Of a DNA stretch of 35,983 bases, positions 315-35,981 are shown piece after piece. The notes under the pieces were generated by a model. The model saw only the letters and a list, made by a program, of their open reading frames with translations. It was not told the DNA's origin and did no database searches. How positions within the stretch are numbered: position 1 is the first letter of the stretch; each line of letters begins with the position of its first letter. Source of the DNA: a virus; the IMG/VR virus record IMGVR_UViG_3300037493_001493, positions 1 through 35,983 of that record; one strand, 5' to 3'. Both the position numbers and the translations under genes were made by a program.

Positions 315-1792
315 TGATGCAACTAAGAGAATATCAAGAACGCTTCATCAACAACATCAGTGCGAAGCTGCGCATCCATCGCAAGGTGGTTGCTCAGCTC
401 GCAACAGGAGGCGGCAAGACAGTATGCTTCGCGGAGATTTGTGACCGCTACTGCGCTAAGTCAAGCCAAGATGTGTTGATACTCGTTCACCGCGAAGAAC
501 TGCTCACACAGGCATCTAAAGCGATTCGACTTCCAGTGCAAAAAGTAGTTGCAGGAATGAAGACCATACCGCCTGCCAGAGTATATGTCGCAATGGTGGA
601 GTCGGCTCACAAGCGGCTGCACCTATTTGAGAACATTGGGATGGTCATAGTTGACGAGTGCCACATCGGAAACTTCACCAAGGTCATTGACCACTTCAAG
701 GAGCAGTACATCATCGGCTTCACTGCCACACCACTTGCCGCCAAGAAGACCAATCCACTGCGCAACTACTTCGATGACATCGTGTGCGGCATCGACATCC
801 CCGAGCTCATAGAGGACGGCTTCCTTGCACCTGAGCAGACATACTCATCTTCATCCATTGTGGAGCGTGCTAAGCTTAAGATGAAAGCAGGCGACTTCGA
901 CCAAGCACAGATGGGAGCCATGTACAAAGAGCCCAAGTACATCGACACCACTCTCAAAGCCTACCAAAAGCATTCACTCGGGCGCAAGACAATAATCTTT
1001 AATTGCAATGTCGAGCACTCCCAAGCAGTCAATGCCGCCTTCGTTGTCGCAGGATTCAACTCACGCCATCTCGATGCAACCTCTGAGAACCGAGCCGAAA
1101 CATTAGAGTGGTTTGCCAACACTCCAGATGCCATCCTTAACAACATCGGCATCGCAACAACAGGCTTCGACCAACCAGACATCGAGACCGTAATAGTTAA
1201 CAAGGCAACAGCATCGATGCCCCTTTGGCTTCAGATGTGCGGCAGAGGTGCTCGTCCGCATCCAATCAAGCTCGCATTCACCATCATCGACCTTGGTGGT
1301 AACTGCCTCACGCACGGCTCATGGGCTGCCTCCCGAAATTGGGAGGATATCTTCCACAATCCCAAGAAGCCAGGCGCAGGAGTTGCTCCAGTAAAAGAAT
1401 GCCCTACATGTGCCGCTCTCCTGCACACCTCCAAGATGCAATGCTACTGCGGCCACATCTTCCCCAAGAAGATTGTCCTTGACCAAGGCATTGAGGACTT
1501 CATCCTTATGACCGACAGTGTTGACATCAAGAAGCTCATCGCAATGAACGAGCACCACAAAGAATACCGATCCCTATTCGTAGCCATTGAACATGTTGCT
1601 CTGCTTGCAAAGAAGAACATCAAGAAATTAAATGCGGACAACTACTTGCACATTGCCAAAAAGAATCACGAAATTGCGAGGCTCTGGTGTCGCGAAAAAA
1701 ACAGAAGATTTAACCGCTTCCACAAAGACCTAGCTGATGAGAAATTAAAAACAACCCTAAAAACAATATATAATGCTGATCTCCTCCTATAA
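314..1792 (+). CDS. Superfamily II DNA helicase, RadD/SSL2-like
   Basis: This 492-aa helicase has the expected ATP-dependent motor motifs. Walker A is ATGGGKT near residues 31-38, the Walker B box is DECH near 114, motif III is FTATP near 137, and motif VI is QMCGRGAR near 307-315. A C-terminal zinc ribbon (CPTC, then CYCG about 15 residues later, near 363-380) resembles RadD-type repair helicases. The likely role is unwinding or branch processing during phage replication and recombination. The ATG at 314 overlaps the preceding TGA (TGATG), which I prefer to an upstream in-frame start at 266. The gene overlaps the primase-helicase start by 20 nt, so the two are probably co-expressed. The helicase call is firm; the RadD assignment is by resemblance. 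Confidence 0.85.
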   Translation: MMQLREYQERFINNISAKLRIHRKVVAQLATGGGKTVCFAEICDRYCAKSSQDVLILVHREELLTQASKAIRLPVQKVVAGMKTIPPARVYVAMVESAHKRLHLFENIGMVIVDECHIGNFTKVIDHFKEQYIIGFTATPLAAKKTNPLRNYFDDIVCGIDIPELIEDGFLAPEQTYSSSSIVERAKLKMKAGDFDQAQMGAMYKEPKYIDTTLKAYQKHSLGRKTIIFNCNVEHSQAVNAAFVVAGFNSRHLDATSENRAETLEWFANTPDAILNNIGIATTGFDQPDIETVIVNKATASMPLWLQMCGRGARPHPIKLAFTIIDLGGNCLTHGSWAASRNWEDIFHNPKKPGAGVAPVKECPTCAALLHTSKMQCYCGHIFPKKIVLDQGIEDFILMTDSVDIKKLIAMNEHHKEYRSLFVAIEHVALLAKKNIKKLNADNYLHIAKKNHEIARLWCREKNRRFNRFHKDLADEKLKTTLKTIYNADLLL

Positions 1793-3905
1793 GAACATCC
1801 ATGATTCCCAAGACACCGACATCGAACTTGCAAGCTTCCTCGAAGGAGTGCAGTCAGGCAAATGGCAAGACATAGTTCTCGATGTGCGCAATGCACCAAC
1901 AAAAGAAATCAAAGACCTTAAGAAGAAAACCGCTCCACTGGTAACCATCAGCGGCTCATTCTCCGCTCGAAAAGATGATGCAATCCGACAGCACTCAGGT
2001 TTCATTGCCATCGACATCGATAACCTCGAAGATGCTCAAGCCACCAAGGAGCGCATAGGTGCTGACCACTATATATATGCTGCATTCTTATCCATCGGAG
2101 GCAACGGCTTATGCCTTATAGTAAAGATTGACGGCACTCGACACCTCGATGCCTTCAATGGCATTGCTGCATACCTTTACAATGAGTATCAACTTATCGT
2201 GGACCAGTCCGGTAAGAATGTTTCCCGTGCTCGATTCGTTTCTTACGATCCATTTATGCTGCTAAATACAAAATCAGCAACATTCAAGAAGTACCTTCCC
2301 AAAAAGAAAGAGCCAAAGCATCCAAAGGTAATGGTGATAAAAACCGACTTTGATGCAATGATCAAGCAGATGGATGAGAAAGGCATCAACCTATGCGAAG
2401 ACTACTCCGATTGGGTGCGCATCTGCTATGCCCTTGTGCAAGAGTTCCAAGAGCAAGGCCGCGACTACTTTCACACCTTATCCTCGCACAGCTCCAAATA
2501 CAACTCACTCGACTGCGATAGCCAGTTCACAGCCTGCCTTAAGAACCACAGCGAAACAAAAAGCAAGAAGTCAAGCATCGGCACAATATACTACCACGCC
2601 AAGCAGAACGGCATCGACATATACTCTGAGCACACAAAGTCAATTGCTCGATATGCAACATCGCAAAAGGCGGCAGGGCTGTCCAAAGAAGCCATCATTG
2701 AGACATTGGAAAAGCAAGGGGGATATAATCCTGAAGACTCCAAAGAAATAGTTGAGCAGATAGTAAGCAAGGATATCAAGTTCAAATCGGATTCCGTAAC
2801 TACCGACATAGCTGCATTTGTTAATACTTACGACCTTAAGAAGAATGTCATCACTCGCAAGATTGAACTTGATGGAAAAGCAATTGATGACTCCGACCTT
2901 AACTCAATCTTTCTTGACTCGAAAGCAGTGTTCAAAGAATCAACAAAGGATTTAATTACTTCGATTATATTCTCAAATCGGGTGCCGTCATACAATCCAT
3001 TGCATGAATTTTTTGAAGAGCAGCTGTTTGAATATGACAACGACAATTGGCCGAATATAAAGCTGCTTCTTAGCAGTGTTGTTTCCGACACTCAAGAAGC
3101 AGATTTCTTCATACTTCGATGGCTGCTTTCAGTTGTCGCATCTGCATACGGTCATAAGTCAGAGCTCGTACTTGTTTTCTGCGGCGAAAAGCAGGGCACT
3201 GGAAAGACTCACTGGTTCCGATACCTCCTTCCAAAGAAGCTGCGCTACCTTTATGCTGAGTCTAAGATGGATGCCGGCAAGGATGATGAAATTCTAATGT
3301 GTGGAAAGTTGCTTATCAATGATGACGAATACGGCGGAAAGTCCAAGAAGGAAGATAAGCGACTTAAGGAGCTCACATCAAAAGAGTTTATCAACGTGCG
3401 CGAGCCATACGGCAGAGTTTCAGTGGATCTAAAAAGGCTATCAGTATTTTGCGGAACATCAAACGAGACTCAGATACTTAGTGATGCAACGGGCAACAGA
3501 CGAATCATGCCAATCCATATCAATGAAATTGACCATGACTTTTATAACCAGTGCGACAAGGAAGGACTTTGGCGTGAGCTCTATTGCATGTTTCAAATGG
3601 GTGCTGAGTACACAATCTTAAAAGAAGATATTGATAGACTTAATGCAGCAACCGAGATGTATAAGATATCAACACCTGAGGATGATTTGATTCACAAGAA
3701 GCTCACACCTGGAAGATCAACATCATACGGCGAGTGGATGTCACTCACCGAAATTCAACAGTACTTAATGGCAGATACCAAGTTTAATTACCTCAACACT
3801 AATCGCATTGGGCAGATTCTCACATCGCTTGGATTTGAAAAGCAACGCAGAGTTTTAAACCTATCTAAGGTCATGATGTACTTTGTAAGCCGCAATCCTA
3901 CATAA
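1773..3905 (+). CDS. Primase-helicase (BT4734-like N-domain, PriCT, VirE/D5-type ATPase)
   Basis: This 710-aa protein shows three regions. Residues about 20-170 resemble the BT4734-like N-terminal domain, with TISGSFSARKDD and HSGFIAIDID. Residues about 195-290 look like a primase C-terminal (PriCT) domain, with DYSDWVRICYAL and GTIYYHAKQNGI. The C-terminal part is an AAA+ ATPase of the VirE/D5 kind, with Walker A GEKQGTGKTHW near 470, Walker B LLINDDE near 512 and a sensor-like FCGTSNE near 560. The family primes and unwinds DNA at phage and plasmid origins. The candidate origin region lies immediately downstream, which fits that role. No phage DNA polymerase was seen, so the host polymerase is probably recruited. 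Confidence 0.82.
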   Translation: MLISSYKNIHDSQDTDIELASFLEGVQSGKWQDIVLDVRNAPTKEIKDLKKKTAPLVTISGSFSARKDDAIRQHSGFIAIDIDNLEDAQATKERIGADHYIYAAFLSIGGNGLCLIVKIDGTRHLDAFNGIAAYLYNEYQLIVDQSGKNVSRARFVSYDPFMLLNTKSATFKKYLPKKKEPKHPKVMVIKTDFDAMIKQMDEKGINLCEDYSDWVRICYALVQEFQEQGRDYFHTLSSHSSKYNSLDCDSQFTACLKNHSETKSKKSSIGTIYYHAKQNGIDIYSEHTKSIARYATSQKAAGLSKEAIIETLEKQGGYNPEDSKEIVEQIVSKDIKFKSDSVTTDIAAFVNTYDLKKNVITRKIELDGKAIDDSDLNSIFLDSKAVFKESTKDLITSIIFSNRVPSYNPLHEFFEEQLFEYDNDNWPNIKLLLSSVVSDTQEADFFILRWLLSVVASAYGHKSELVLVFCGEKQGTGKTHWFRYLLPKKLRYLYAESKMDAGKDDEILMCGKLLINDDEYGGKSKKEDKRLKELTSKEFINVREPYGRVSVDLKRLSVFCGTSNETQILSDATGNRRIMPIHINEIDHDFYNQCDKEGLWRELYCMFQMGAEYTILKEDIDRLNAATEMYKISTPEDDLIHKKLTPGRSTSYGEWMSLTEIQQYLMADTKFNYLNTNRIGQILTSLGFEKQRRVLNLSKVMMYFVSRNPT

Positions 3906-5143: not shown

Positions 5144-6334
5144 ATGAGAGCCGAGATAGTTAAGATTAGCGATGTTAAGGTAAATCCTAATAACCCGAGA
5201 CTTATCAAGGATGATAAGTTTGCAAAGCTTGTGCAGTCAATTAAAGACTTGCCTCAGATGCTTGCCATTCGTCCTATCGTAGTCAATACAGATATGGTTG
5301 TGCTTGGTGGCAATATGCGCCTTAAGGCTTGCAAAGAGGCAGGACTTAAAGAAGTACCTATCATCATTGCAGACAACCTTACAGAGGAGCAACAACGTGA
5401 ATTCTTAATCAAAGATAATGTAAGCGGTGGCGAGTGGGATTGGCAGATGCTTGCTAATGATTGGGATACTGAGCAGCTTAATGATTGGGGATTGGACATT
5501 CCAAACTTTGAGCCCGAGCAAGTGCTCGAAGCCGTTGAGGATGATTATGAAGTTCCTGATGGCGGCATTGAAACCGACATTGTACTTGGAGACCTATTTG
5601 AGATAGGGGAGCATCGTTTGCTTTGTGGAGATTCGACGGATAGTGATGCAGTGGCAAGGTTGATGGATGGAAGTAAGGCGGATATGGTGTTTACTGACCC
5701 GCCTTATAGAATGGAAGCACAAGGAGGAAGTAACCAACCAATAGGAAGGGCAGCAGCTAAACTTGGTAAAGCTATTGAACATTTATGCGAGTTTGACCCT
5801 GTTGCTTTTCTTAATACTTTGCCAATTGTATTTGAAAGCAAAAAAATGAACTCATATATCTTTTGCAATAAAGATTTAGTTCCCGACTATCTTAATTGGG
5901 CTATTGAAAGCGGTTATAGTTTTAATATACTATTTTGGAAGAAACCAAATGCTATCCCACTTGGTGAGCAACACAGACCCGACACAGAATATTTATTATT
6001 CTTTAGAAAATCGGCAATTTGGAACAATGGTTTGAAAGATGTAAATTATTCAAAGTGCTTGGAATTTGGAAGAGATAACTCTACACCACATCCAACTATG
6101 AAACCTATCGAATTAATATCTAATGAGATAAAGATTAGTTCAAACAAAAACGGAATAGTATTTGATTTTTTCTTAGGTTCAGGTTCAACAATGGTAGCAT
6201 CACACCAACTCAACCGCAAATGCTACGGAATGGAACTCGATCCGAAGTACTGCCAAGTGATTGTTGATAGGATGCTTAAACTTGACCCATCGCTTAAAGT
6301 TAAGCGAAACGGAATTGAATACATAACCTCGTAA
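5144..6334 (+). CDS. ParB-like domain fused to a beta-class DNA methyltransferase
   Basis: Residues 1 to about 110 form a ParB/sulfiredoxin-like domain, with NPNNPR, VVLGGNMRLKACKEAG and the following KDN motif. Residues about 145-396 form a SAM-dependent amino-methyltransferase. The catalytic DPPY box is near 185 and the SAM-binding FxGxGS (FDFFLGSGST) is near 340. That order, motif IV before motif I, marks the beta class that makes N6-methyladenine or N4-methylcytosine. The family is common in phages and may protect DNA from restriction. No cognate endonuclease is beside it. The central recognition segment (about 5780-6190) is visibly more AT-rich than both ends, which suggests domain exchange. 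Confidence 0.85.
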   Translation: MRAEIVKISDVKVNPNNPRLIKDDKFAKLVQSIKDLPQMLAIRPIVVNTDMVVLGGNMRLKACKEAGLKEVPIIIADNLTEEQQREFLIKDNVSGGEWDWQMLANDWDTEQLNDWGLDIPNFEPEQVLEAVEDDYEVPDGGIETDIVLGDLFEIGEHRLLCGDSTDSDAVARLMDGSKADMVFTDPPYRMEAQGGSNQPIGRAAAKLGKAIEHLCEFDPVAFLNTLPIVFESKKMNSYIFCNKDLVPDYLNWAIESGYSFNILFWKKPNAIPLGEQHRPDTEYLLFFRKSAIWNNGLKDVNYSKCLEFGRDNSTPHPTMKPIELISNEIKISSNKNGIVFDFFLGSGSTMVASHQLNRKCYGMELDPKYCQVIVDRMLKLDPSLKVKRNGIEYITS

Positions 6335-15387: not shown

Positions 15388-15927
15388 ATGGCCTGTGTAT
15401 CATATTGCGACACATCCTTGCTTGAGCACGACTTAGTGATCTGCAACGAATATAAACTCGGCGGAGTTTCCGCCATCATCGTAGGAGCTTGCGGAACAGA
15501 ACTTGTTGATCCTTCAGATTCAGTTGAGGTTGATGCCTTACTTGCATCTGGTGAAGCAAGACTAATCAGCGACATTCGCTTTGCACTTCCTGCGGGCTCA
15601 CCTATTACTGTTGATTCACCAATCGGTTGTGGTACTTCAATCCGTATCAACGAAGATCGCACAGCGACTTTGTACGATGCTAACGTGACTGATGGCAACA
15701 ACACATTCTGGAACGATGTAAACAACCGCCGTATCTCTTGGATACTTGCGTACATGTGTGACAGCGGAAAGGTGATTTATGTCACTGCTCCTGTTGGAAT
15801 CACGACATCTGCAAACTTCATCTTGCCTGAGCAGAACAATGAGCTTCAGCGTTATGAGGTGACTTTCTCTTGGAGAAACAAAAACATTCCTGCACAATAC
15901 GATGCTCCTGCTGGAGTCTTCAGTTAA
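15388..15927 (+). CDS. Probable major tail tube protein
   Basis: This 179-aa protein starts MACVSYCDTSLLEHDLV and is beta-rich with few charged runs. It ends in YEVTFSWRNKNIPAQYDAPAGVF, an ending that reminds me of tail tube proteins of Bacteroidota phages. It is one of the few genes with its own upstream promoter and leader, as expected for an abundant structural protein. It lies just after the tail tip genes. No diagnostic motif settles it, so another major virion protein is possible. Its stop overlaps the next start (TAATG at 15925-15929). Confidence 0.55.
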   Translation: MACVSYCDTSLLEHDLVICNEYKLGGVSAIIVGACGTELVDPSDSVEVDALLASGEARLISDIRFALPAGSPITVDSPIGCGTSIRINEDRTATLYDANVTDGNNTFWNDVNNRRISWILAYMCDSGKVIYVTAPVGITTSANFILPEQNNELQRYEVTFSWRNKNIPAQYDAPAGVFS

Positions 15928-16880
15928 TGACGGAGGAATCGACATCTACCAATCAGAGCATCACTCCTTCAACAGGGGTGGTGCTTCTTGCGTTCGGCAA
16001 AGTGCAATACTATTGGGCTGCATTCAACCTTGCATTCAGCATAAGGAAGCACAATCCAAAAATAAAAATATCAGTGCTGTTCGATGATCCGATTAAGGGC
16101 TTATCACAATGCCCTGACTTTATGAAGTACATCAACCACATTGGGCACATTGCGGCCGATGATATCACTACCAACAAGAAGCTTGATCCCGGCAAGGTGA
16201 AAGTGAATTTATATAAATACTTGCCATACGATTGCAACCTCTACCTCGATGTAGATGCGATTGCACTCAAAGACATTCAGCCTATGATTGACGAACTAAG
16301 TCAGTCGGGCAAAGATTACATCAGCCATACAGTTGGTTATCATACCATCGACAAGGGGCGCGACTTCAAGGAGATGCAGTGGGCATGGGCAGATAGGATG
16401 TGGGAGCACTTCAACTTGCTGCCAAGCTACGTGATGCCTGCCATCAACAGCTCGATGCAGTGGATTGTAAAAGGCTCTCAGACGGAGGCAATATATCGCA
16501 CTGCAAAAGACTTGTACTTCAACAACCCGATTGCCATCAAAGACCTACGCATGAAGTGGGGAGGTGGGCAGCCAGATGAGTTATACATGAATGTAGCACT
16601 TGCGATTCATGGCATTGATCCTGCGCTGAAGGCTTACACTAGAAACGACACAAGCGAAGGCGGCATGATTCACTTTGCGATGACAAGGGGGTTAAACTTC
16701 CAAGACATCGTAAGCAACTACTACTTGCAAAGCTACTATGGCGGCGCAGGCTTCACTCCAAGATTTTACATTGATTGGCTTGATAGGATGTTAGCAAACG
16801 ACTTCAAGGCAGTTGGTTCAAGACATATCTACCTAATTAGCAGAATAGCACAAAACAAGTACGCAGATGGAAAACGATAA
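15927..16880 (+). CDS. Glycosyltransferase, GT-A fold with DxD motif
   Basis: This 317-aa enzyme begins with GVVLLAFGKVQYYWAAFNLA, typical of a nucleotide-sugar-binding first strand and helix. The metal-binding DxD is LYLDVDAIAL near residues 105-112. A later WGGGQPDELYMNVAL segment near 215-225 resembles the acceptor or second catalytic region of GT8-like enzymes. I chose the ATG at 15927, overlapping the upstream stop. It would transfer a sugar from an activated donor in the cytoplasm. Lying between tail and head genes, it may decorate the virion or alter host surface sugars. The substrate is unknown. Confidence 0.72.
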   Translation: MTEESTSTNQSITPSTGVVLLAFGKVQYYWAAFNLAFSIRKHNPKIKISVLFDDPIKGLSQCPDFMKYINHIGHIAADDITTNKKLDPGKVKVNLYKYLPYDCNLYLDVDAIALKDIQPMIDELSQSGKDYISHTVGYHTIDKGRDFKEMQWAWADRMWEHFNLLPSYVMPAINSSMQWIVKGSQTEAIYRTAKDLYFNNPIAIKDLRMKWGGGQPDELYMNVALAIHGIDPALKAYTRNDTSEGGMIHFAMTRGLNFQDIVSNYYLQSYYGGAGFTPRFYIDWLDRMLANDFKAVGSRHIYLISRIAQNKYADGKR

Positions 16881-17439
16881 GCCAAAGAGAGGCAGACCAA
16901 AAAAAGAAATTGTAACCACTGAGACATTCACCGAGGTGGCCCGACATGATTGGAACTCCGAGAATGAGTGCGGCCTATTCATGTCAAGCCTTATCAAGAT
17001 GAGCAAGTACATAACGGTACTTGAGATTGGAGTATTCGAAGGGGAGACATCGCAGCACCTTATCAAGGCATTGCCAAAGGGTGGGCAGTATATTGGCATT
17101 GACATCAACGACTATCGCACAGATGCCACCAAGTTATACATGGCTGAGGGTGGAAAGTCGATTGACTTCATCCTGGGCAATTCATTGGATGAATTGGATA
17201 AGCTGCCTAAGAATCACTTTGACCTTATCTTCATTGATGGAGATCATAGCTTCGGACATGTGCTGCAAGAGTTTAAGCTGGTTGAGAAGTTGGTAAGCCG
17301 TGGCGGTGTGATTATATTACATGACACTATTCACTTGGACGGTCCTCGTAAGCTTGTCGAATACGCAGCAACTTATAATTATAATAACGTAACGCTCAAC
17401 ACCACTGAAGGTAGAGGGCTCTCAATACTACACCGATGA
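16867..17439 (+). CDS. Class I SAM-dependent methyltransferase
   Basis: This 190-aa enzyme shows the Rossmann-fold order. Motif I is VLEIGVFEGETSQHL near residues 51-65, then YIGIDIND near 76, FDLIFIDGDHS near 117 and GGVIILHDT near 142. These match the Methyltransf_24-like group. The N-terminus is basic with KPKRGRPKK, an AT-hook-like segment. It overlaps the glycosyltransferase by 14 nt, so the two are probably translated together. It may methylate a sugar or protein rather than DNA, since no DPPY-type box is present. The substrate is unknown. Confidence 0.75.
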   Translation: MENDKPKRGRPKKEIVTTETFTEVARHDWNSENECGLFMSSLIKMSKYITVLEIGVFEGETSQHLIKALPKGGQYIGIDINDYRTDATKLYMAEGGKSIDFILGNSLDELDKLPKNHFDLIFIDGDHSFGHVLQEFKLVEKLVSRGGVIILHDTIHLDGPRKLVEYAATYNYNNVTLNTTEGRGLSILHR

Positions 17440-20365: not shown

Positions 20366-20393
20366 GGTATAAGTAGTTATGTGCTATTATACC
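20366..20393. terminator. Weak inverted repeat between convergent genes
   Basis: GGTATAA at 20366-20372 pairs with TTATACC at 20387-20393 around a 14-nt loop. It lies between the minor head gene (+) and the end of the minus-strand cassette and overlaps the latter's stop codon. Neither side has a good T-run, so it is at best a weak or factor-dependent terminator. Confidence 0.3.
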
Positions 20394-20689
20394 AACGTGG
20401 GTAGTTCGCACCAATAGGTCACTTCTTCAATCTTAGTTCCTTTTTCCGTAAGCCAAAAAAATTGACCTTTATCTCTAAAATCTAAACCATCTTCAAGGTC
20501 GTTCATTTCGCAAACGTGCCATCCTCTAACATCATATTGCATTTTATCAATTCCACTTACTAAAACATACTTTCCGTATTCGGGCAAGTCTGCGTAAGTT
20601 TCAATTTTTTTTGGCTGAGAAATAACAGCACATAACATCGGTTTGGCTAAATTGCCGTTTTGTTCTTCGTTTGAAAGTTTATCTTTCAT
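20387..20689 (-). CDS. Hypothetical protein, DUF551-like ending, minus-strand cassette
   Basis: This 100-aa protein is the second gene of a minus-strand pair and starts in an ATGA overlap with the membrane-protein gene. It contains aromatic and charged segments (PEYGKYVLVSGIDKM, KGQFFWLTEKGTK) and ends in EEVTYWCELPTL. That ending resembles the terminal VTHWMPLP pattern of DUF551-type small proteins often carried by phages. Its function is unknown. The region is more AT-rich than the flanking structural genes, which suggests separate acquisition. Confidence 0.6.
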   Translation of the reverse strand: MKDKLSNEEQNGNLAKPMLCAVISQPKKIETYADLPEYGKYVLVSGIDKMQYDVRGWHVCEMNDLEDGLDFRDKGQFFWLTEKGTKIEEVTYWCELPTLV

Positions 20690-21216
20690 AGCTTCCCCAA
20701 TAGTTGTGATTCGATAGATTTAAGCTCCGAGTTTAAAAATTCAAACTTGTTAGCCATTTCATTGCAAAGATTAACTGCTTGGTTAGCTTTAATAATTGCC
20801 TCATGTTTATCCATATCTCTTTGAGTCTGCAAGTTATATACTCTTTGTGAGTATTCCTTTTTTGTTTTCTCCAATTCAATTATTTTAGAATCAAGCAATC
20901 TTATTTTTTCATCTCTTTCATTTATTTTATGAAGAGAAGATTTATATTTTATTTCCAATTCAATTAATTTAGAATTGCTTAAATCAAGATTTGATTTTTT
21001 AAGTTTATTAAATTTTAAATCTTGATCATTAATTTGATTTTTAAAATCAACATTCTTATTTTTTAAAATTTGATTTTCTTTTTTTAATTTGTCAAGTGCT
21101 GATGCACAATCTTTAATTATAATATTTAAAGATTTATTTTTATCAGTGTAATCTATTAAGATTATCAAAAATATAATTGAGATTATTAAAAGCATTACAA
21201 TTATTGCTGTTTCCAT
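20686..21216 (-). CDS. Single-pass membrane protein with long coiled coil
   Basis: This 176-aa protein has an N-terminal membrane helix (residues about 4-24, AIIVMLLIISIIFLIILI). A Lys/Glu/Leu/Ile-rich coiled coil follows for most of the remainder, with heptad-like KLKKENQILKNKN and KIRLLDSKIIELEKTK. I set the start at 21216 rather than the longer frame to 21294. The minus-strand promoter element (21238-21245) lies between the two, so the longer start would be untranscribed. Candidate roles are superinfection exclusion, surface or spanin-like function. The gene is strongly AT-rich and opposes all its neighbours. Confidence 0.65.
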   Translation of the reverse strand: METAIIVMLLIISIIFLIILIDYTDKNKSLNIIIKDCASALDKLKKENQILKNKNVDFKNQINDQDLKFNKLKKSNLDLSNSKLIELEIKYKSSLHKINERDEKIRLLDSKIIELEKTKKEYSQRVYNLQTQRDMDKHEAIIKANQAVNLCNEMANKFEFLNSELKSIESQLLGKL

Positions 21217-21237
21217 GTTTAGGGGTTTTAGTTTCCG

Positions 21238-21245
21238 CAAATCTA
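21238..21245 (-). promoter_or_regulatory. Minus-strand promoter, TTG-N19-TAGATTTG
   Basis: On the minus strand TAGATTTG occupies 21245-21238 and TTG occupies 21267-21265, with a 19-nt spacer. This is the best full match to the Bacteroidota promoter in the window. It would start transcription about 15 nt before the ATG at 21216 and drive the two-gene minus-strand cassette. Confidence 0.65.
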
Positions 21246-21253
21246 AAACATTA

Positions 21254-21300
21254 TTTTGATTAAGCAATGCACATTGTAAATATATTTTACGCAATCAAAA
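21254..21300. promoter_or_regulatory. Cluster of inverted repeats between divergent promoters
   Basis: Three dyads lie between the minus-strand and plus-strand promoters. TTTTGATT (21254-21261) is inverted as AATCAAAA (21293-21300). CAATG-CA-CATTG spans 21265-21276. GTAAA-n5-TTTAC spans 21276-21290. They overlap the upstream parts of both promoters, so they are candidate operators that could switch the two directions. No adjacent repressor gene is recognised. Confidence 0.5.
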
Positions 21301-28726: not shown

Positions 28727-29214
28727 AAATTACCGACTTAGGAACATTGACCACAGCGGTTGATGCAGACTTATTATACATCGTTGATGTCAGCGACACA
28801 TCGCAATCACCGCAAGGTACATCCAAGCAGATTGAACTTGGTAATATTGTAAAGAGTGCAACATGGACACCGACATTTACAGTTCAATCAGGAAGTTTTG
28901 TTGTTGCTGCTATTGGCGGAATATCTTCGTATAATAAAACGGGCAATTTTGTTCAGTTCTTTTTTAAATTAAGAATAGCATTTGACACTGATAGCATTGC
29001 AGAATTTAGCATGACGTTGCCATTTAGCTCAACTTTAACATTCTATGATTCAATTGCTATTTGTAATTTAATAGAACCACAAACTACTGGAGGCGCGGTC
29101 ATAAAAAATACTAACAACGGCAATGGAGACAAAATAGAGTTTCAATTTGAAACAGAAAATTCATCAAGTGACACCTATGAATTTAATGTCATTGCTAATT
29201 ATCTTATCATCTAA
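28714..29214 (+). CDS. Tail fibre or spike-like protein
   Basis: This 166-aa protein begins with KITDLGTLTTAVDADLLYIVD, the DL-x-x-L..DLLYIVD pattern found at the N-terminus of many phage fibre and spike proteins that dock to the virion. The remaining 120 residues are beta-rich and encoded by AT-rich DNA, like other receptor-binding tips in this genome. I placed the start at ATG 28714, inside the previous gene's end. It is coupled to the lysozyme gene by TAATG. Confidence 0.6.
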   Translation: MAGVKITDLGTLTTAVDADLLYIVDVSDTSQSPQGTSKQIELGNIVKSATWTPTFTVQSGSFVVAAIGGISSYNKTGNFVQFFFKLRIAFDTDSIAEFSMTLPFSSTLTFYDSIAICNLIEPQTTGGAVIKNTNNGNGDKIEFQFETENSSSDTYEFNVIANYLII

Positions 29215-29669
29215 TGAAGACCTCTGACAACGGCATCCGACTCATACAAGAGTTCGAGGGCTTGCGGCTGACCAGTTACCTCTGTTCGGCAGGAGTGCCG
29301 ACCATCGGCTACGGCGCAACGTACTACGCGGACGGCAGCAAGGTGAAGCTTGGGCAGACCATAACAAAGGAGCAAGCAACGCAGCTGCTCAAGGACCATC
29401 TCAAGGAGTTTGAGGGCAGCGTAACAGGACTGCTTAACACAACCAAAGTCAACGCTAACCAGTTCGATGCCCTTGTAAGTTTTTGCTTCAACCTGGGCGC
29501 AGCAAACCTTGCCAAGTCGCAGTTGCTTAGGTTTGTAAAAGCCAACCCTAACGACCCCAAGATTGCAGCGGAGTTCGCCAAGTGGAACAGAGCAGGCGGC
29601 GTGGTTGTCACGGGGCTTGTAAGAAGGCGCAAGAAAGAGGCGCAACTATACTTCACTCCCATAGTATAA
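29214..29669 (+). CDS. Endolysin, GH24 (T4-type) lysozyme
   Basis: This 151-aa muramidase cuts peptidoglycan between N-acetylmuramic acid and N-acetylglucosamine. The catalytic region is FEGLRLTSYLCSAGVPTIGYG. Glu15, then Cys24 and Thr30, hold the spacing of T4 Glu11-Asp20-Thr26, so the usual Asp is Cys. The family signature continues with FDALVSFCFNLG near residues 83-94 and the C-terminal RRRKKEAQLY. No signal peptide or anchor is present, so export must depend on a holin; the candidate is at 29805. It begins by TAATG coupling. Confidence 0.88.
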   Translation: MKTSDNGIRLIQEFEGLRLTSYLCSAGVPTIGYGATYYADGSKVKLGQTITKEQATQLLKDHLKEFEGSVTGLLNTTKVNANQFDALVSFCFNLGAANLAKSQLLRFVKANPNDPKIAAEFAKWNRAGGVVVTGLVRRRKKEAQLYFTPIV

Positions 29670-29830
29670 TGAAACAGCTCTATGAAATCTATCTATTAAA
29701 ACATAAATCAGCAGCCTTTGTCAAGATTGAAGAGATGGATTTAACATTTGAGCAGTTCGTTGAGAAAATGCAATCATCTTATTCATTTAACTATATGTGG
29801 GGCTATGACACCAAGAAAGCAAGTAAGTAA
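29669..29830 (+). CDS. Small hypothetical protein in the lysis region
   Basis: This 53-aa protein starts in a TAATG overlap with the lysozyme stop. It is soluble and aromatic-rich, with LYEIYLLKHKSAAFVKIEEM and FNYMWGYDTKK. No motif is recognised. It overlaps the holin candidate by 26 nt, so it probably belongs to the same lysis transcript. Confidence 0.5.
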   Translation: MKQLYEIYLLKHKSAAFVKIEEMDLTFEQFVEKMQSSYSFNYMWGYDTKKASK

Positions 29831-30008
29831 GCTAAGGCAACTTCTTGACATAATCATCAAGCATTGGAGACCGACAATGGGCAGTTTGGTCATTCTGTCG
29901 AGCGTGTTTGGTCTAATATTTAACCAGATAAATACCGAAACACTTGCAGCAATTGTTGCCGCAATGGTGGCGGCAGGTTACATTCCTAAATCAAGCAGCA
30001 ATGGATGA
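29805..30008 (+). CDS. Holin candidate
   Basis: This 67-aa protein has a basic amphipathic N-terminus (RKQVSKLRQLLDIIIKHWR). Two hydrophobic segments follow, at about residues 25-40 (GSLVILSSVFGLIF) and 46-60 (LAAIVAAMVAAGYI). The size, two hydrophobic segments and position one gene after the endolysin fit a class II holin. Holins open the inner membrane to release lysozyme. The alternative is a small accessory membrane protein. I chose the ATG at 29805 within the preceding gene's end. Confidence 0.6.
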   Translation: MTPRKQVSKLRQLLDIIIKHWRPTMGSLVILSSVFGLIFNQINTETLAAIVAAMVAAGYIPKSSSNG

Positions 30009-30396
30009 CTTTAAAGACTCAATAGTTACTACGATAGACAAAGAATGTGTGATTGGCATTGGCTGCAAGTTGCACACTCATCATAAGATTGTTGAAAAAG
30101 TAATGCAACCTAAAGACACTTTCACTATCTTTGGCACAAATTCAATTACGATGTACGCAAGCGATACCATTCAACCGAGCACATCTGCATTCCTGCAAAG
30201 TCCAAAGCCAGAGACTAAGATAATCATCAAGCCTCGCACTGAGTTCACCGAGTATCAGCCGACAATGGATGCACCAATCATGGGCATGTTGCTAACCTTT
30301 ACAATCTACCTCACAGCGCAATGGGCATGGAGTTCAATGTCGGAGTGGTCCAAACTATTTAGCGAACTCAAGCAATGTCTTCGCTTTTCATCTTAG
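30001..30396 (+). CDS. Small membrane protein in the lysis region
   Basis: This 131-aa protein has a soluble N-terminal 95 residues and a single hydrophobic segment near residues 97-115 (APIMGMLLTFTIYLTAQWAW). A short polar C-terminus follows. It overlaps the holin candidate by 8 nt and the PAS-HisKA gene by 22 nt. It may be a second holin, an antiholin or a spanin part, but no signature decides. Confidence 0.5.
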   Translation: MDDFKDSIVTTIDKECVIGIGCKLHTHHKIVEKVMQPKDTFTIFGTNSITMYASDTIQPSTSAFLQSPKPETKIIIKPRTEFTEYQPTMDAPIMGMLLTFTIYLTAQWAWSSMSEWSKLFSELKQCLRFSS

Positions 30397-30941
30397 AAAA
30401 CTCGATTGACCTCTTCTATGTGGTGACTGATGAAAGCGGCTTAATTGTGTCAAGCAATGAGCTGTTCAGAAATTATTCAAGCCATATACAGCCGAATAAT
30501 ATTAGTGATATTATAAGCATCGAAGGTGACAAAGATGACTTCATAAAAGCAATTCAGTTGGCTCGTAAGCATACACCTGAGCCATCGCGTGTATATGCTC
30601 GCACTCGGTTAAAAAATACCATCGACAGATACAATATCTGGAACTGCTTCGCAATCGAAGACACCTTGCACTTTGTCGGGATCCAGTTAGTCGATGTCAC
30701 CTCAATCAACTCGCATGACTATGAGCGGCAGAAGTTGCTGCTTGAAGAGTTTAGGTTTATGCTCAGCCATGAGATCCGGCAACCACTGACAAACATCGCA
30801 GGGCTTGTGCAATTGATGTTAAACCATCCGATGTCAAACAATGAGGAGAAGCGCGATCTACTTAAGATGATTCATACATCGGTCACAAAGCTCGATGATT
30901 CCATCAAGGTACTTATTAAGAAAGCAGCTCGCGAGTTATGA
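30375..30941 (+). CDS. PAS domain plus histidine-kinase dimerisation domain, no ATPase
   Basis: This 188-aa protein looks like a sensor kinase cut off before its catalytic part. Residues about 5-110 form a PAS-like domain (FYVVTDESGLIVSSNELFRN). Residues about 118-180 form a HisKA/DHp domain whose H box FRFMLSHEIRQPLTNIAGL puts the conserved His at residue 132. It then stops at the end of the second dimerisation helix. N, G1, F and G2 boxes of an ATPase are absent, and no receiver gene is nearby. It could bind host sensor kinases or relay signals. It overlaps both neighbours, so it is an intact part of the operon. Confidence 0.75.
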   Translation: MSSLFILENSIDLFYVVTDESGLIVSSNELFRNYSSHIQPNNISDIISIEGDKDDFIKAIQLARKHTPEPSRVYARTRLKNTIDRYNIWNCFAIEDTLHFVGIQLVDVTSINSHDYERQKLLLEEFRFMLSHEIRQPLTNIAGLVQLMLNHPMSNNEEKRDLLKMIHTSVTKLDDSIKVLIKKAAREL

Positions 30942-31117
30942 CAGAGCAGGAGGCGGACAAGAGACTGGTTAAGGTTGCCGCTTGGTATGTGATAGAGCGT
31001 GGTATGCCTGTTTGTGTGGCATTGCAAATCCTTAAAGCCGAGCTCAATGATAAGCGACTATTTTGGGAGTCATCGCGTGAACTAATTAAACTTATTCAAG
31101 ATGGAGTCTTCATATAA
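30938..31117 (+). CDS. Small hypothetical protein
   Basis: This 59-aa soluble helical protein is encoded directly after the PAS-HisKA gene. It starts in an ATGA overlap at 30938 and overlaps the next gene by 17 nt. Sequence features are TEQEADKRLVKVAAWYVIERG and a helix LQILKAELNDKRLFWE. No motif is recognised. Tight coupling suggests a partner or accessory of the PAS-HisKA protein, but that is inference from position. Confidence 0.6.
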   Translation: MTEQEADKRLVKVAAWYVIERGMPVCVALQILKAELNDKRLFWESSRELIKLIQDGVFI

Positions 31118-31745
31118 GATCATCAGCATTGCCACAATCATTGTGCTTGTGTTATTACTGCTAAAAACTTGCGGCGAAAACGCGGCCAATGATTACCGCC
31201 TTAAGCACACGATTTATGAGGACTCGATACTTATCGCCTCGCAGCGCAAAGTAATCGCACAGAGCGGCTCTGATGCGGCAAAACAAGCACAGCAGATTGC
31301 GGAGCTCGAGGTGAAAGTAAAGAACGCATCGGAGGTTGTCAAGATTGAGACTCGCACAATCATCAAAACGCAAATCAAGTTAGGCGATACGGTGATGATT
31401 GACAAGAAGCCATACATCCAACTGCCAAAGCCATTCCTTAAGCAAACCGAATGGTACACAATCGTCGGCATGATTAACCGACTCGGGTGGTTGCAACTTG
31501 ACAGCATAGTCATCCCTGCTAAGTTTACCTATGCCGTTGGCGATACCATGCGCACTGGCTTTGTCAACCGACTCCTAAAGAAGAAGGACACTGTTGTCCG
31601 CCTCAGAGTCGACAATCCTAATGTGGCCATAGTGGGGCTTGAAAATATCTATATCAAGCAAGATAAAAAGTGGCATCAAACAACCGCCTTTAAGGTGGGA
31701 GTCGGTGTGCTGATTGGGGTGGTGGCAGTCAAGGCAGTAAAATAA
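31101..31745 (+). CDS. Membrane-anchored protein, spanin-like candidate
   Basis: This 214-aa protein has an N-terminal membrane helix (ISIATIIVLVLLLLKTCG, residues about 8-25), with a Cys at the end of it. A heptad-like helix follows (AAKQAQQIAELEVKVKNAS). A periplasm-like beta-rich domain and a second hydrophobic segment at the C-terminus (VGVGVLIGVVAVKAV) complete it. The N-terminal anchor plus coiled coil is similar to an inner-membrane spanin, and the gene closes the lysis region. The C-terminal hydrophobic end is unusual for a spanin, so another membrane role remains open. Confidence 0.55.
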   Translation: MESSYKIISIATIIVLVLLLLKTCGENAANDYRLKHTIYEDSILIASQRKVIAQSGSDAAKQAQQIAELEVKVKNASEVVKIETRTIIKTQIKLGDTVMIDKKPYIQLPKPFLKQTEWYTIVGMINRLGWLQLDSIVIPAKFTYAVGDTMRTGFVNRLLKKKDTVVRLRVDNPNVAIVGLENIYIKQDKKWHQTTAFKVGVGVLIGVVAVKAVK

Positions 31746-31753: not shown

Positions 31754-31801
31754 ATTATGAGCGAGTTAGGATAATTGCGTGTAAATAGTTTTGAAAGGTG
31801 G

Positions 31802-31870: not shown

Positions 31871-32158
31871 ATGAACACATTCTTCAAATCACACGACAGC
31901 ACGCAGTTTTTTAACTACGACCATCTATCTGGCATCATGCTTACAATTGTGCAAGACGGTTGCCATCAAGGTCTCTTCCAAAGATGTGACAAAAACTCAC
32001 TTATCCTTGTTCGCCAATTCTCGAAGGAGATGCAGCAAGGGCTTGATGAATCGGTTCGCACTTATCATCCATCGGATGTTAACGAGTTCTTTAGAATGTA
32101 TCAGAAAACGCTGCACAATACACAAGTATCATTTAAACAATTAATAAATCAATTCTAA
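31871..32158 (+). CDS. Hypothetical early protein
   Basis: This 95-aa protein is the first gene of the early operon, with its own promoter and an A/T-rich leader of about 35 nt. It is rich in His, Gln and Phe and has two Cys residues (VQDGCHQGLFQRCDKNSL). It has no membrane segment and no motif I recognise. First-gene position after a regulated promoter is typical of host-takeover proteins, but nothing in the sequence shows that. Confidence 0.6.
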   Translation: MNTFFKSHDSTQFFNYDHLSGIMLTIVQDGCHQGLFQRCDKNSLILVRQFSKEMQQGLDESVRTYHPSDVNEFFRMYQKTLHNTQVSFKQLINQF

Positions 32159-33738: not shown

Positions 33739-34330
33739 ATGGACACTGCAAGAGACTGAGTTGCTCATTGAATACTATCCGCATCGGTCGACTAAAGAGG
33801 TGGCATTCATAACTGGCAAGACAATCAACCAGTGCTACAATAAAGCCTTCGCGCTGCAACTGCATAAGACTCCCGAGTATCTTGCGACAGAAGCAAGCGG
33901 CAGGCTCAAGCACTCCCGAGTAGAGTCGCAGTTCCCGAAAGGTCACACCCCTTGGAACAAAGGCATGAAAGGCATTGCATTTGGAGGGCATGAGACAAGA
34001 TTCAAGAAGGGTTCAGTGCCACCCAATCACAAGGAAGTTGGCTCAGAGCGCATCGATGAAGATGGCTACACCTACATCAAGATTGCAGAGCACACACGAT
34101 GGGTCCTCAAGCATCGGCACATCTACGAACAGCATCATGGTAAGCTCGAGCCGCACATGATAGTGATATTTCGAGATAAAAACATCTCAAACTTCGAGAT
34201 AGAGAATCTGGAAGCAATCACCAAGGTGGAAAACATGCAGCGCAATACGATTACTAAATACCCTCAACCAATTCAACAAGCAGTTAAAACCCTAAACAAA
34301 TTATGGCACGCAATAAAATCGAAGACCTAA
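33725..34330 (+). CDS. HNH endonuclease with SANT/Myb-like and NUMOD3-like parts
   Basis: This 201-aa protein has three visible parts. Residues 1-45 resemble a Myb/SANT-like helix-turn-helix (WTLQETELLIEYYP, KTINQCYNKAFAL). Residues about 65-100 carry PKGHTPWNKGMKG, the pattern of a NUMOD3 DNA-binding element. Residues about 125-175 form an HNH core (WVLKHRHIYEQHHGKLEPH, then DKNISNFEIENLEA). Free-standing versions are typical homing endonucleases. No intron is evident around it. It could also be a phage nuclease for packaging or host DNA degradation. It overlaps both neighbours. Confidence 0.8.
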   Translation: MTRCKWTLQETELLIEYYPHRSTKEVAFITGKTINQCYNKAFALQLHKTPEYLATEASGRLKHSRVESQFPKGHTPWNKGMKGIAFGGHETRFKKGSVPPNHKEVGSERIDEDGYTYIKIAEHTRWVLKHRHIYEQHHGKLEPHMIVIFRDKNISNFEIENLEAITKVENMQRNTITKYPQPIQQAVKTLNKLWHAIKSKT

Positions 34331-34518
34331 GAGATCACCTATTCGAAATCATCGAGATGTTAAAAGAAAACGACATGGAGCTTGATAAAGCAAAAGCAAT
34401 CGCAGACATCGCCCAGGTGATTGTCAACTCAGCAAAGGTTGAGGTAGACTTCATAAAGGTGGTACATGGCAACGGTAGTGGATTCATTCCATTGGACAAA
34501 AGAGCACTTGAGTCATGA
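34303..34518 (+). CDS. Small hypothetical protein
   Basis: This 71-aa helical acidic protein (NKIEDLRDHLFEIIEMLKEN, KAKAIADIAQVIVNSAKVEV) overlaps the HNH gene by 28 nt. It ends in an ATGA overlap with the next. The pattern resembles short phage proteins with similar AxxIAdvAQvIvnsAKvEvdf helices found near HNH or regulatory genes. No role can be assigned. Confidence 0.6.
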   Translation: MARNKIEDLRDHLFEIIEMLKENDMELDKAKAIADIAQVIVNSAKVEVDFIKVVHGNGSGFIPLDKRALES

Positions 34519-35627: not shown

Positions 35628-35739
35628 AAAGCAGATGCTAATAGACATCTGCAATGAGTGCGTTCAGGACATGATACAAGGTAACATCGCCCTCGGAAAG
35701 CCCGTGGGTGAGCAATTATATAAAAAGAAGTACCTATGA
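35482..35739 (+). CDS. Hypothetical helical protein overlapping the previous gene
   Basis: This 85-aa protein is helical, with QEPYALAMALVYEHIAIFCEAEL and LIDICNECVQDMIQGNIALG, and ends LYKKKYL. The start is uncertain: ATG 35482 overlaps the previous gene by 146 nt, while ATG 35572 overlaps by 56 nt. If the A6 run at 35500-35505 has one extra A, this would instead be the C-terminus of the preceding gene. The next gene starts in an ATGA overlap at 35736. Confidence 0.55.
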   Translation: MTSTSLKKVQQLCKDGAKEYRQSQEPYALAMALVYEHIAIFCEAELPNEKQMLIDICNECVQDMIQGNIALGKPVGEQLYKKKYL

Positions 35740-35981
35740 GCGGCAAAAAGCAAACAGCGTTAGAGTATTTTCTAATGGGGATATATGATTTGAAGATTAT
35801 TAAACTTGAGTACAACGATAAGATAAATCAATTAAGCGATTTATATCACGATGCCATCGTAATGGAGTTTAAGCAACAAAAATTAATTTACGAAGGCTTG
35901 CTACAAAACGTAGGCACGTCAATTAAGCAATCTGATTTACCAACATTTGAAGAATATTATAAGGAAACCTATGGAAAATAA
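35736..35981 (+). CDS. Small conserved phage protein, KQTAxEW family
   Basis: This 81-aa protein is complete here and repeats as a 3' end at 2-124. It is paralogous to the gene at 114-314: both open with KKQTA(L/V)E and both have an aromatic YY-x-x-TY tail (FEEYYKETYG here). It starts in an ATGA overlap. On the circular genome its stop region contains the start of the paralogue, so the two lie in one coupled run. Function is unknown. Confidence 0.7.
   Translation: MSGKKQTALEYFLMGIYDLKIIKLEYNDKINQLSDLYHDAIVMEFKQQKLIYEGLLQNVGTSIKQSDLPTFEEYYKETYGK

Follow-up and report, generated by a model that had tools for sequence, protein, structure and literature searches.

What would a phage do with half a histidine kinase? 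The window analysed here, that is, the whole stretch of 35,983 nucleotides from IMG/VR virus record IMGVR_UViG_3300037493_001493, encodes beside a phage lysozyme a 188-residue protein that joins a sensor part to the dimerisation hairpin (DHp) of a histidine kinase and then stops. The gene (PAS-DHp) and its parts are as follows.

30375-30941, plus strand: PAS-DHp protein, 188 aa, without an ATP-binding (CA) domain; ATG at 30375, stop codon ending at 30941.
30393-30695, plus strand: predicted PAS-fold sensor domain, residues 7-107 (AlphaFold and VIA-align Z 13.1; pN/pS 0.15).
30696-30749, plus strand: PAS C-terminal D-V-T-S-I motif end and signalling-helix linker, residues 108-125 (from sequence; pN/pS 0.10).
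30750-30794, plus strand: H-box FRFMLSHEIRQPLTN, with F128 (H-4), H132, E133 (H+1) and Q136 (H+4) invariant in 125/125 distinct proteins (pN/pS 0.047).
30768-30770, plus strand: codon of His132, the predicted phosphoacceptor (Pfam HisKA, sequence and conservation).
30840-30938, plus strand: predicted DHp helix 2, residues 156-188, where the protein ends (AlphaFold models).

HisKA (PF00512) is the sole Pfam family in the protein, matching residues 129-176 (E=1e-9, 38.7 bits against a cut-off of 26.9). The same family was matched by 12/12 divergent relatives and lay above cut-off in 23 of 24 records of related phages. In NCBIfam, residues 16-181 align with the PAS-DHp part of PhoR/PnpS-type kinases, with scores far below the whole-protein cut-offs, as expected for a protein in which the CA domain is missing. 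No PAS family was matched in Pfam at E<=10, and the PAS assignment comes from structural modelling instead. The AlphaFold model has a PAS fold at residues 11-107 (pLDDT about 75-89) followed by two long helices, 113-149 and 156-187, for which confidence was modest in both models, the second, deeper one being no higher. The PAS fold aligned with ARNT PAS-B (4xt2_D; VIA-align Z 13.1, rmsd 2.2, 96 residues), the protein aligned with the EL346 histidine kinase over 151 residues (VIA-align Z 11.8), and LOV-histidine kinases were the top whole-chain Foldseek matches. The product of 30375-30941 is a soluble sensor, PAS-folded according to the models, plus a complete HisKA DHp hairpin and nothing else; we place it with high confidence in the HisKA DHp family by profile, and not among the histidine kinases. 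The first-pass annotation had read the protein as a PAS-like part and a DHp with a conserved H-box at His132, devoid of any ATP-binding box. This agrees with the HisKA profile, the modelled fold, the occurrence of H132 in all 125 distinct proteins and the absence of HATPase_c from protein and window; of the two profile matches it had named, HisKA was obtained and PAS was not.

Relatives were gathered from IMG/VR scans and pooled with loci found via a downstream gene, giving 243 loci (some contigs were fetched twice). The protein is 186 or 188 residues long, ending just after the DHp, in 242 of these, and the distinct full-length proteins number 125, with a minimum pairwise identity of 52%. The remaining locus, L201, holds the only broken copy seen, cut down to a 94-aa ORF (1409-1693) that begins inside the gene. 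A later pattern scan added 106 further loci, in which the protein, if uncut by a contig end, stops about 57 residues past the His and never has a CA domain; H-box conservation in these loci is not independent evidence, because the pattern required the H-box. The dN/dS of the PAS-DHp gene, relatives versus the window gene, is about 0.10, that of the lysozyme gene 0.09, and the constraint on PAS-DHp is similar to that on the lysozyme. Within the gene, pN/pS is lowest in the H-box (0.047, versus 0.15 in PAS and 0.25 in DHp helix 2), and the 15-residue segments of lowest entropy fall in residues 122-137.

Carrier-only sampling was avoided by searching with the product of a different gene, 31871-32158. 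This search gave 66 new loci, four of which begin too near the match to include the PAS-DHp site; the gene is present in 62/62 testable sister loci, in one case as the broken 94-residue fragment of L201. PAS-DHp distances follow those of six neighbours (r 0.83-0.92), and of the seven families it is PAS-DHp whose maximum distance (0.48) is lowest. Since the correlation is no stronger with lysis genes (r 0.83-0.91) than with genes downstream of the cassette (0.83-0.92), this co-variation shows only vertical descent. PAS-DHp is a core gene of its phage lineage, vertically inherited.

The gene lies in the following cassette.

29214-29669, plus strand: endolysin, GH24-type phage lysozyme (Pfam Phage_lysozyme E=3.4e-42; PHROG endolysin E=9.5e-57).
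29805-30008, plus strand: holin-like small protein, 67 aa, with two hydrophobic segments (two hydropathy peaks; 185/185 loci tested; no family match).
30001-30396, plus strand: 131-aa protein with a hydrophobic C-terminal segment (163/185 loci; 22-nt overlap with the PAS-DHp gene).
30938-31117, plus strand: 59-aa helical protein (g59) of an undescribed family (ATGA overlap with the PAS-DHp stop; 156/158 loci).
31101-31745, plus strand: 214-aa protein with N- and C-terminal TM segments (TM peaks), weakly Rz/spanin-like (PHROG Rz-like spanin E=0.014; Pfam DUF6549 E=0.0004, below cut-off).
31786-31793, plus strand: TAnnTTTG, a candidate -7 box of a Bacteroidota promoter for the transcription unit that follows (motif; consensus from PMC9723704).

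The identity of the lysozyme is certain; the holin-like and spanin labels are putative, coming from hydropathy and from a weak PHROG match (E=0.014), respectively. The order lysozyme, holin-like protein, 131-aa protein (or a diverged equivalent), PAS-DHp, g59 and Rz-like protein is constant in the collected loci. The 22-nt overlap with the upstream gene at 30001-30396 recurs in most loci tested, and the 4-nt ATGA overlap with g59 in 139/139 distinct loci tested. The g59 family (52-73 aa, helical, motif D.RLvKvaa.Yv.Er.MP..VA..iL) is translationally coupled to the PAS-DHp gene, and g59 of the window gave no significant Pfam, PHROG or PDB match. L345 (1268 bases), the most divergent member seen, lacks g59, and its PAS-DHp gene runs straight into the Rz-like gene with an overlap; the pairing with g59 is therefore not obligatory. 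The position in the cassette speaks for late expression and would fit lysis control, proving neither; it may be a matter of late timing only.

Could the gene simply be a decaying or truncated histidine kinase? Cellular relatives do carry the CA domain. That origin is ruled out by the same short form in all relatives, a dN/dS of about 0.10, core-gene status and coupling on both sides, and we regard its probability as negligible. The first-pass annotation had likewise rejected a broken kinase, citing coupling at both ends, and had raised the prospect of homologues that always carry HATPase; the uniform length in 242/243 loci and the two overlaps bear it out, and no IMG/VR homologue checked has a CA domain. 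The company of lysozyme and holin-like genes, which it had suggested looking for in other phages, recurs throughout the IMG/VR loci as a fixed gene order.

Transcription differs among clades. In clades II and III, TAnnTTTG lies 12-15 nt ahead of the PAS-DHp start codon in 36/36 distinct regions, and random 25-nt stretches drawn from such loci contain it in about 2% of cases; in the clade of the window it occurs near the start in 0/97 distinct upstream regions. Loci L071, L080, L161, L181 and L208 and their kin carry it directly upstream of the gene. In flavobacteria this motif serves the housekeeping sigma factor as its -7 box and occupies -12 to -5 relative to the start of transcription (PMC9723704); at the observed spacing the PAS-DHp mRNAs of clades II and III would be nearly leaderless. 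Of the complete Bacteroidota promoter pattern, TTTG plus TAnnTTTG, the window holds no exact copy, and only the -7 box was followed. From this motif and a BT4734-like primase-helicase at 1773-3905, the hosts are probably Bacteroidota.

Elsewhere in the window, several features stand apart from the cassette. A ParB_N domain is fused to an N6/N4 DNA methyltransferase at 5144-6334, just ahead of the terminase genes, and 15870-17439, between tail-side genes and the portal candidate, holds an ORF without Pfam match that looks by eye like a glycosyltransferase, together with a methyltransferase. On the minus strand, two overlapping ORFs (100 and 202 aa; 20387-21294) lie amid plus-strand head genes, the longer one with a hydrophobic stretch and coiled-coil-like sequence. 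The PHROG matched by a 71-aa ORF at 34303-34518 (E=1.8e-14) bears the label 'RNA polymerase beta subunit', which is doubtful for so small a protein. ORFs near both record ends (90-314 and 35736-35981) share an N-terminal KKQTA[VL]E motif and are possibly paralogues.

The chemistry of the H-box is informative about function. F128, H132, E133, R135, Q136 and P137 are invariant in 125/125 distinct proteins, down to 52% identity, and the phosphoacceptor His with its adjacent acidic residue (H132-E133) is thus present in every one. At H+4, all 125 have Gln and not Thr or Asn. Thr or Asn at this position is the phosphatase residue, typical of HisKA but not universal. In ten sampled cellular HisKA proteins, nine among the best plasmid matches plus one E. 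coli PhoR, the H-4 residue is A, S or D, the H+4 residue is T, N, S or A, and the chain runs on for at least 197 residues past the His; the corresponding values in PAS-DHp are F, Q and 57. By helix geometry, H-4 and H+4 should share a helix face with His132. HisKA kinases require the acidic residue at H+1 to act as kinases, though not as phosphatases; the reverse holds for the H+4 Thr/Asn, which phosphatase activity requires and kinase activity does not. When the H+4 Asn of CrdS was changed to Gln, no measurable phosphatase was left and kinase activity fell by about 40% (PMC3510030). As PAS-DHp lacks this canonical residue, it is predicted to be unable to dephosphorylate response regulators. 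By analogy with these kinases, the family resembles a DHp that can be phosphorylated, has no phosphatase activity and bears an altered docking face.

No phosphoryl donor was found in the phages themselves. HATPase_c was absent (E<=1) from the protein, from the whole window and from 24 related phage records, each of which has exactly one HisKA match, and Response_reg had no match at E<=1 in the same 25 records; controls were positive in these scans, and some of the phage records may be incomplete. With no CA domain in the protein and none found in trans in these 25 records, PAS-DHp is neither an orthodox histidine kinase nor part of a split kinase or phage two-component system. If His132 is phosphorylated, both the CA domain and the receiver would therefore be supplied by the host.

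Beyond this lineage, scans of 50,697 phage records and 84,980 prokaryote genomes gave no relatives, and neither did a GTDB scan for a host homologue with family peptides. The H-box pattern F-[ILM]-L-S-H-E-[LI]-R-Q-P, written for TCN serine codons, matches 94 of the fetched loci; it had no match in the 84,980 genomes, but serines encoded by AGY escape it and that collection offered no positive control, so this absence is no more than a lead. Named cultured phages gave only chance-level matches to PAS-DHp (E of about 0.4-0.8), none related by the capsid-candidate or Rz-like protein, and only about 22% identity in TerL. Defence-system models had no match, no known cofactor site was assigned to the PAS part, and the open-licence literature yielded no account of a PAS-DHp protein from a phage that lacks the CA domain.

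Among known systems, the HisKA-type PAS sensor kinases (PhoR, PnpS, LOV-HK; PDB 4gcz, 8a7h, 4r3a) share the PAS fold, D-[IV]-T linker, DHp hairpin and SHE[IL]R.P H-box with its His and H+1 Glu; unlike them, PAS-DHp is a soluble protein of 188 aa with no CA/ATPase domain, has F at H-4 and Q at H+4, has no linked response regulator and is found only in phage records. The histidine phosphotransferases Spo0B and ChpT also have a DHp-type helical hairpin with a His and no autokinase activity; ChpT has a degenerate CA-like C-terminal domain, whereas PAS-DHp ends after the DHp and has PAS in front. The antikinases Sda, KipI, FixT and Osp are small trans-acting modulators of sensor kinases, the role proposed here for PAS-DHp, but their folds are unrelated or receiver-like and none is a PAS-DHp with a phosphoacceptor His. 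The nearest functional precedent is VqmA of vibriophage VP882, a phage-encoded PAS sensor bearing on when the cell is lysed; it is, however, a PAS-HTH transcription factor of a temperate phage, without DHp, acting via the antirepressor gene qtip (PMC8284805). Short phage proteins labelled 'PAS domain' or 'histidine kinase' in BFVD (A0A6J5KZZ3, 169 aa; A0A8D9CBR8, 165 aa; A0A6J5RGP7, 169 aa) have a similar length and a PAS-like fold, at 14-16% identity.

We tentatively favour a dimeric, PAS-gated and phosphatase-dead phosphoacceptor working in trans, to which a host kinase would pass phosphate late in infection and which would serve as a sink or relay; this reading is quite possible, if short of probable. 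Made together with the lysis genes, PAS-DHp would encounter a sensor kinase of the host, forming a DHp heterodimer with it or docking its ATP-bound CA domain, and would be phosphorylated on His132. Without the H+4 Thr/Asn it would leave the phosphate of response regulators in place, and, as the PAS input allows, it could rewire one host two-component pathway in the last phase of infection, be it an envelope or stress response or lysis timing. The first-pass annotation had a lone DHp dimerising with, titrating or being phosphorylated by host kinases: dependence on a host kinase, if the protein is phosphorylated, is upheld by the lack of a phage HATPase, and the emphasis shifts from titration to acceptor because H132 and E133 are invariant and Gln replaces the T/N phosphatase residue. 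On the whole its observation stands more firmly than it had claimed, and its interpretation is upheld in part. Against the acceptor, the bulky F128, at a position small or polar in the sampled kinases, might get in the way of a CA domain or response regulator; the reasoning on H+4 carries data from full-length kinases over to a lone DHp; the drift of DHp helix 2 fits poorly with strict heterodimerisation with one host kinase; and the cassette position may reflect nothing but late timing.

The odd H-box face can also be read as a specialised docking surface. The hairpin would then pair with or cap a host kinase and block it as a non-phosphorylated decoy, its binding modulated by PAS and its catalytic residues important just for docking; a lone DHp, with F128 and Q136 invariant and atypical on the same helix face as H132, would suit this, and antikinases are known, for example Sda and KipI, which inhibit KinA (PMC12471899). 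A pure decoy would not require both H132 and E133, yet both are kept in 125/125 proteins and helix 2 varies, and we consider it unlikely. Similarly low is the likelihood that a PAS-DHp dimer binds one of the lysis proteins encoded nearby (the holin-like, 131-aa membrane, 59-aa or Rz-like one) and frees it on a cytoplasmic signal, with or without phosphorylation. Gene order is kept, ATGA coupling to g59 holds in 139/139 loci and PAS-DHp overlaps the Rz-like gene directly in L345, but distances co-vary no more strongly with lysis genes than with downstream genes, and PAS-DHp has its own promoter motif in clades II and III. Phosphate might instead come from a host receiver domain and not a kinase CA domain, since dimeric DHp-type phosphotransferases without kinase activity exist in ChpT and Spo0B (PMC3433190); the invariant H+1 Glu, the residue needed for phosphorylation by ATP/CA (PMC3510030), and the degenerate CA-like domain retained by ChpT and absent here make such a relay very unlikely.

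The acceptor reading could be carried further, to a lysis sensor with a borrowed kinase in a whole uncultured phage lineage, probably of Bacteroidota: a host kinase would charge the re-tooled, phosphatase-dead PAS-DHp, whose phosphorylation state would gate the lysis cassette. We hold this extension to be distinctly unlikely; if it is true, the phage reads host two-component signalling to time lysis. The protein bears on whether a cytoplasmic sensor can set lysis timing in phages of Gram-negative hosts, and His132 offers a one-residue test of whether phages plug into host two-component signalling. Its carriers are a widespread, uncultured group of viruses that keep half a signalling enzyme in the gene cluster for bursting the cell, and never the ATP-using part. 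A lineage-wide gene, constrained like lysozyme and equivalent to precisely half a histidine kinase, would clearly exemplify phage dependence on, or hijacking of, host phosphorelay chemistry.
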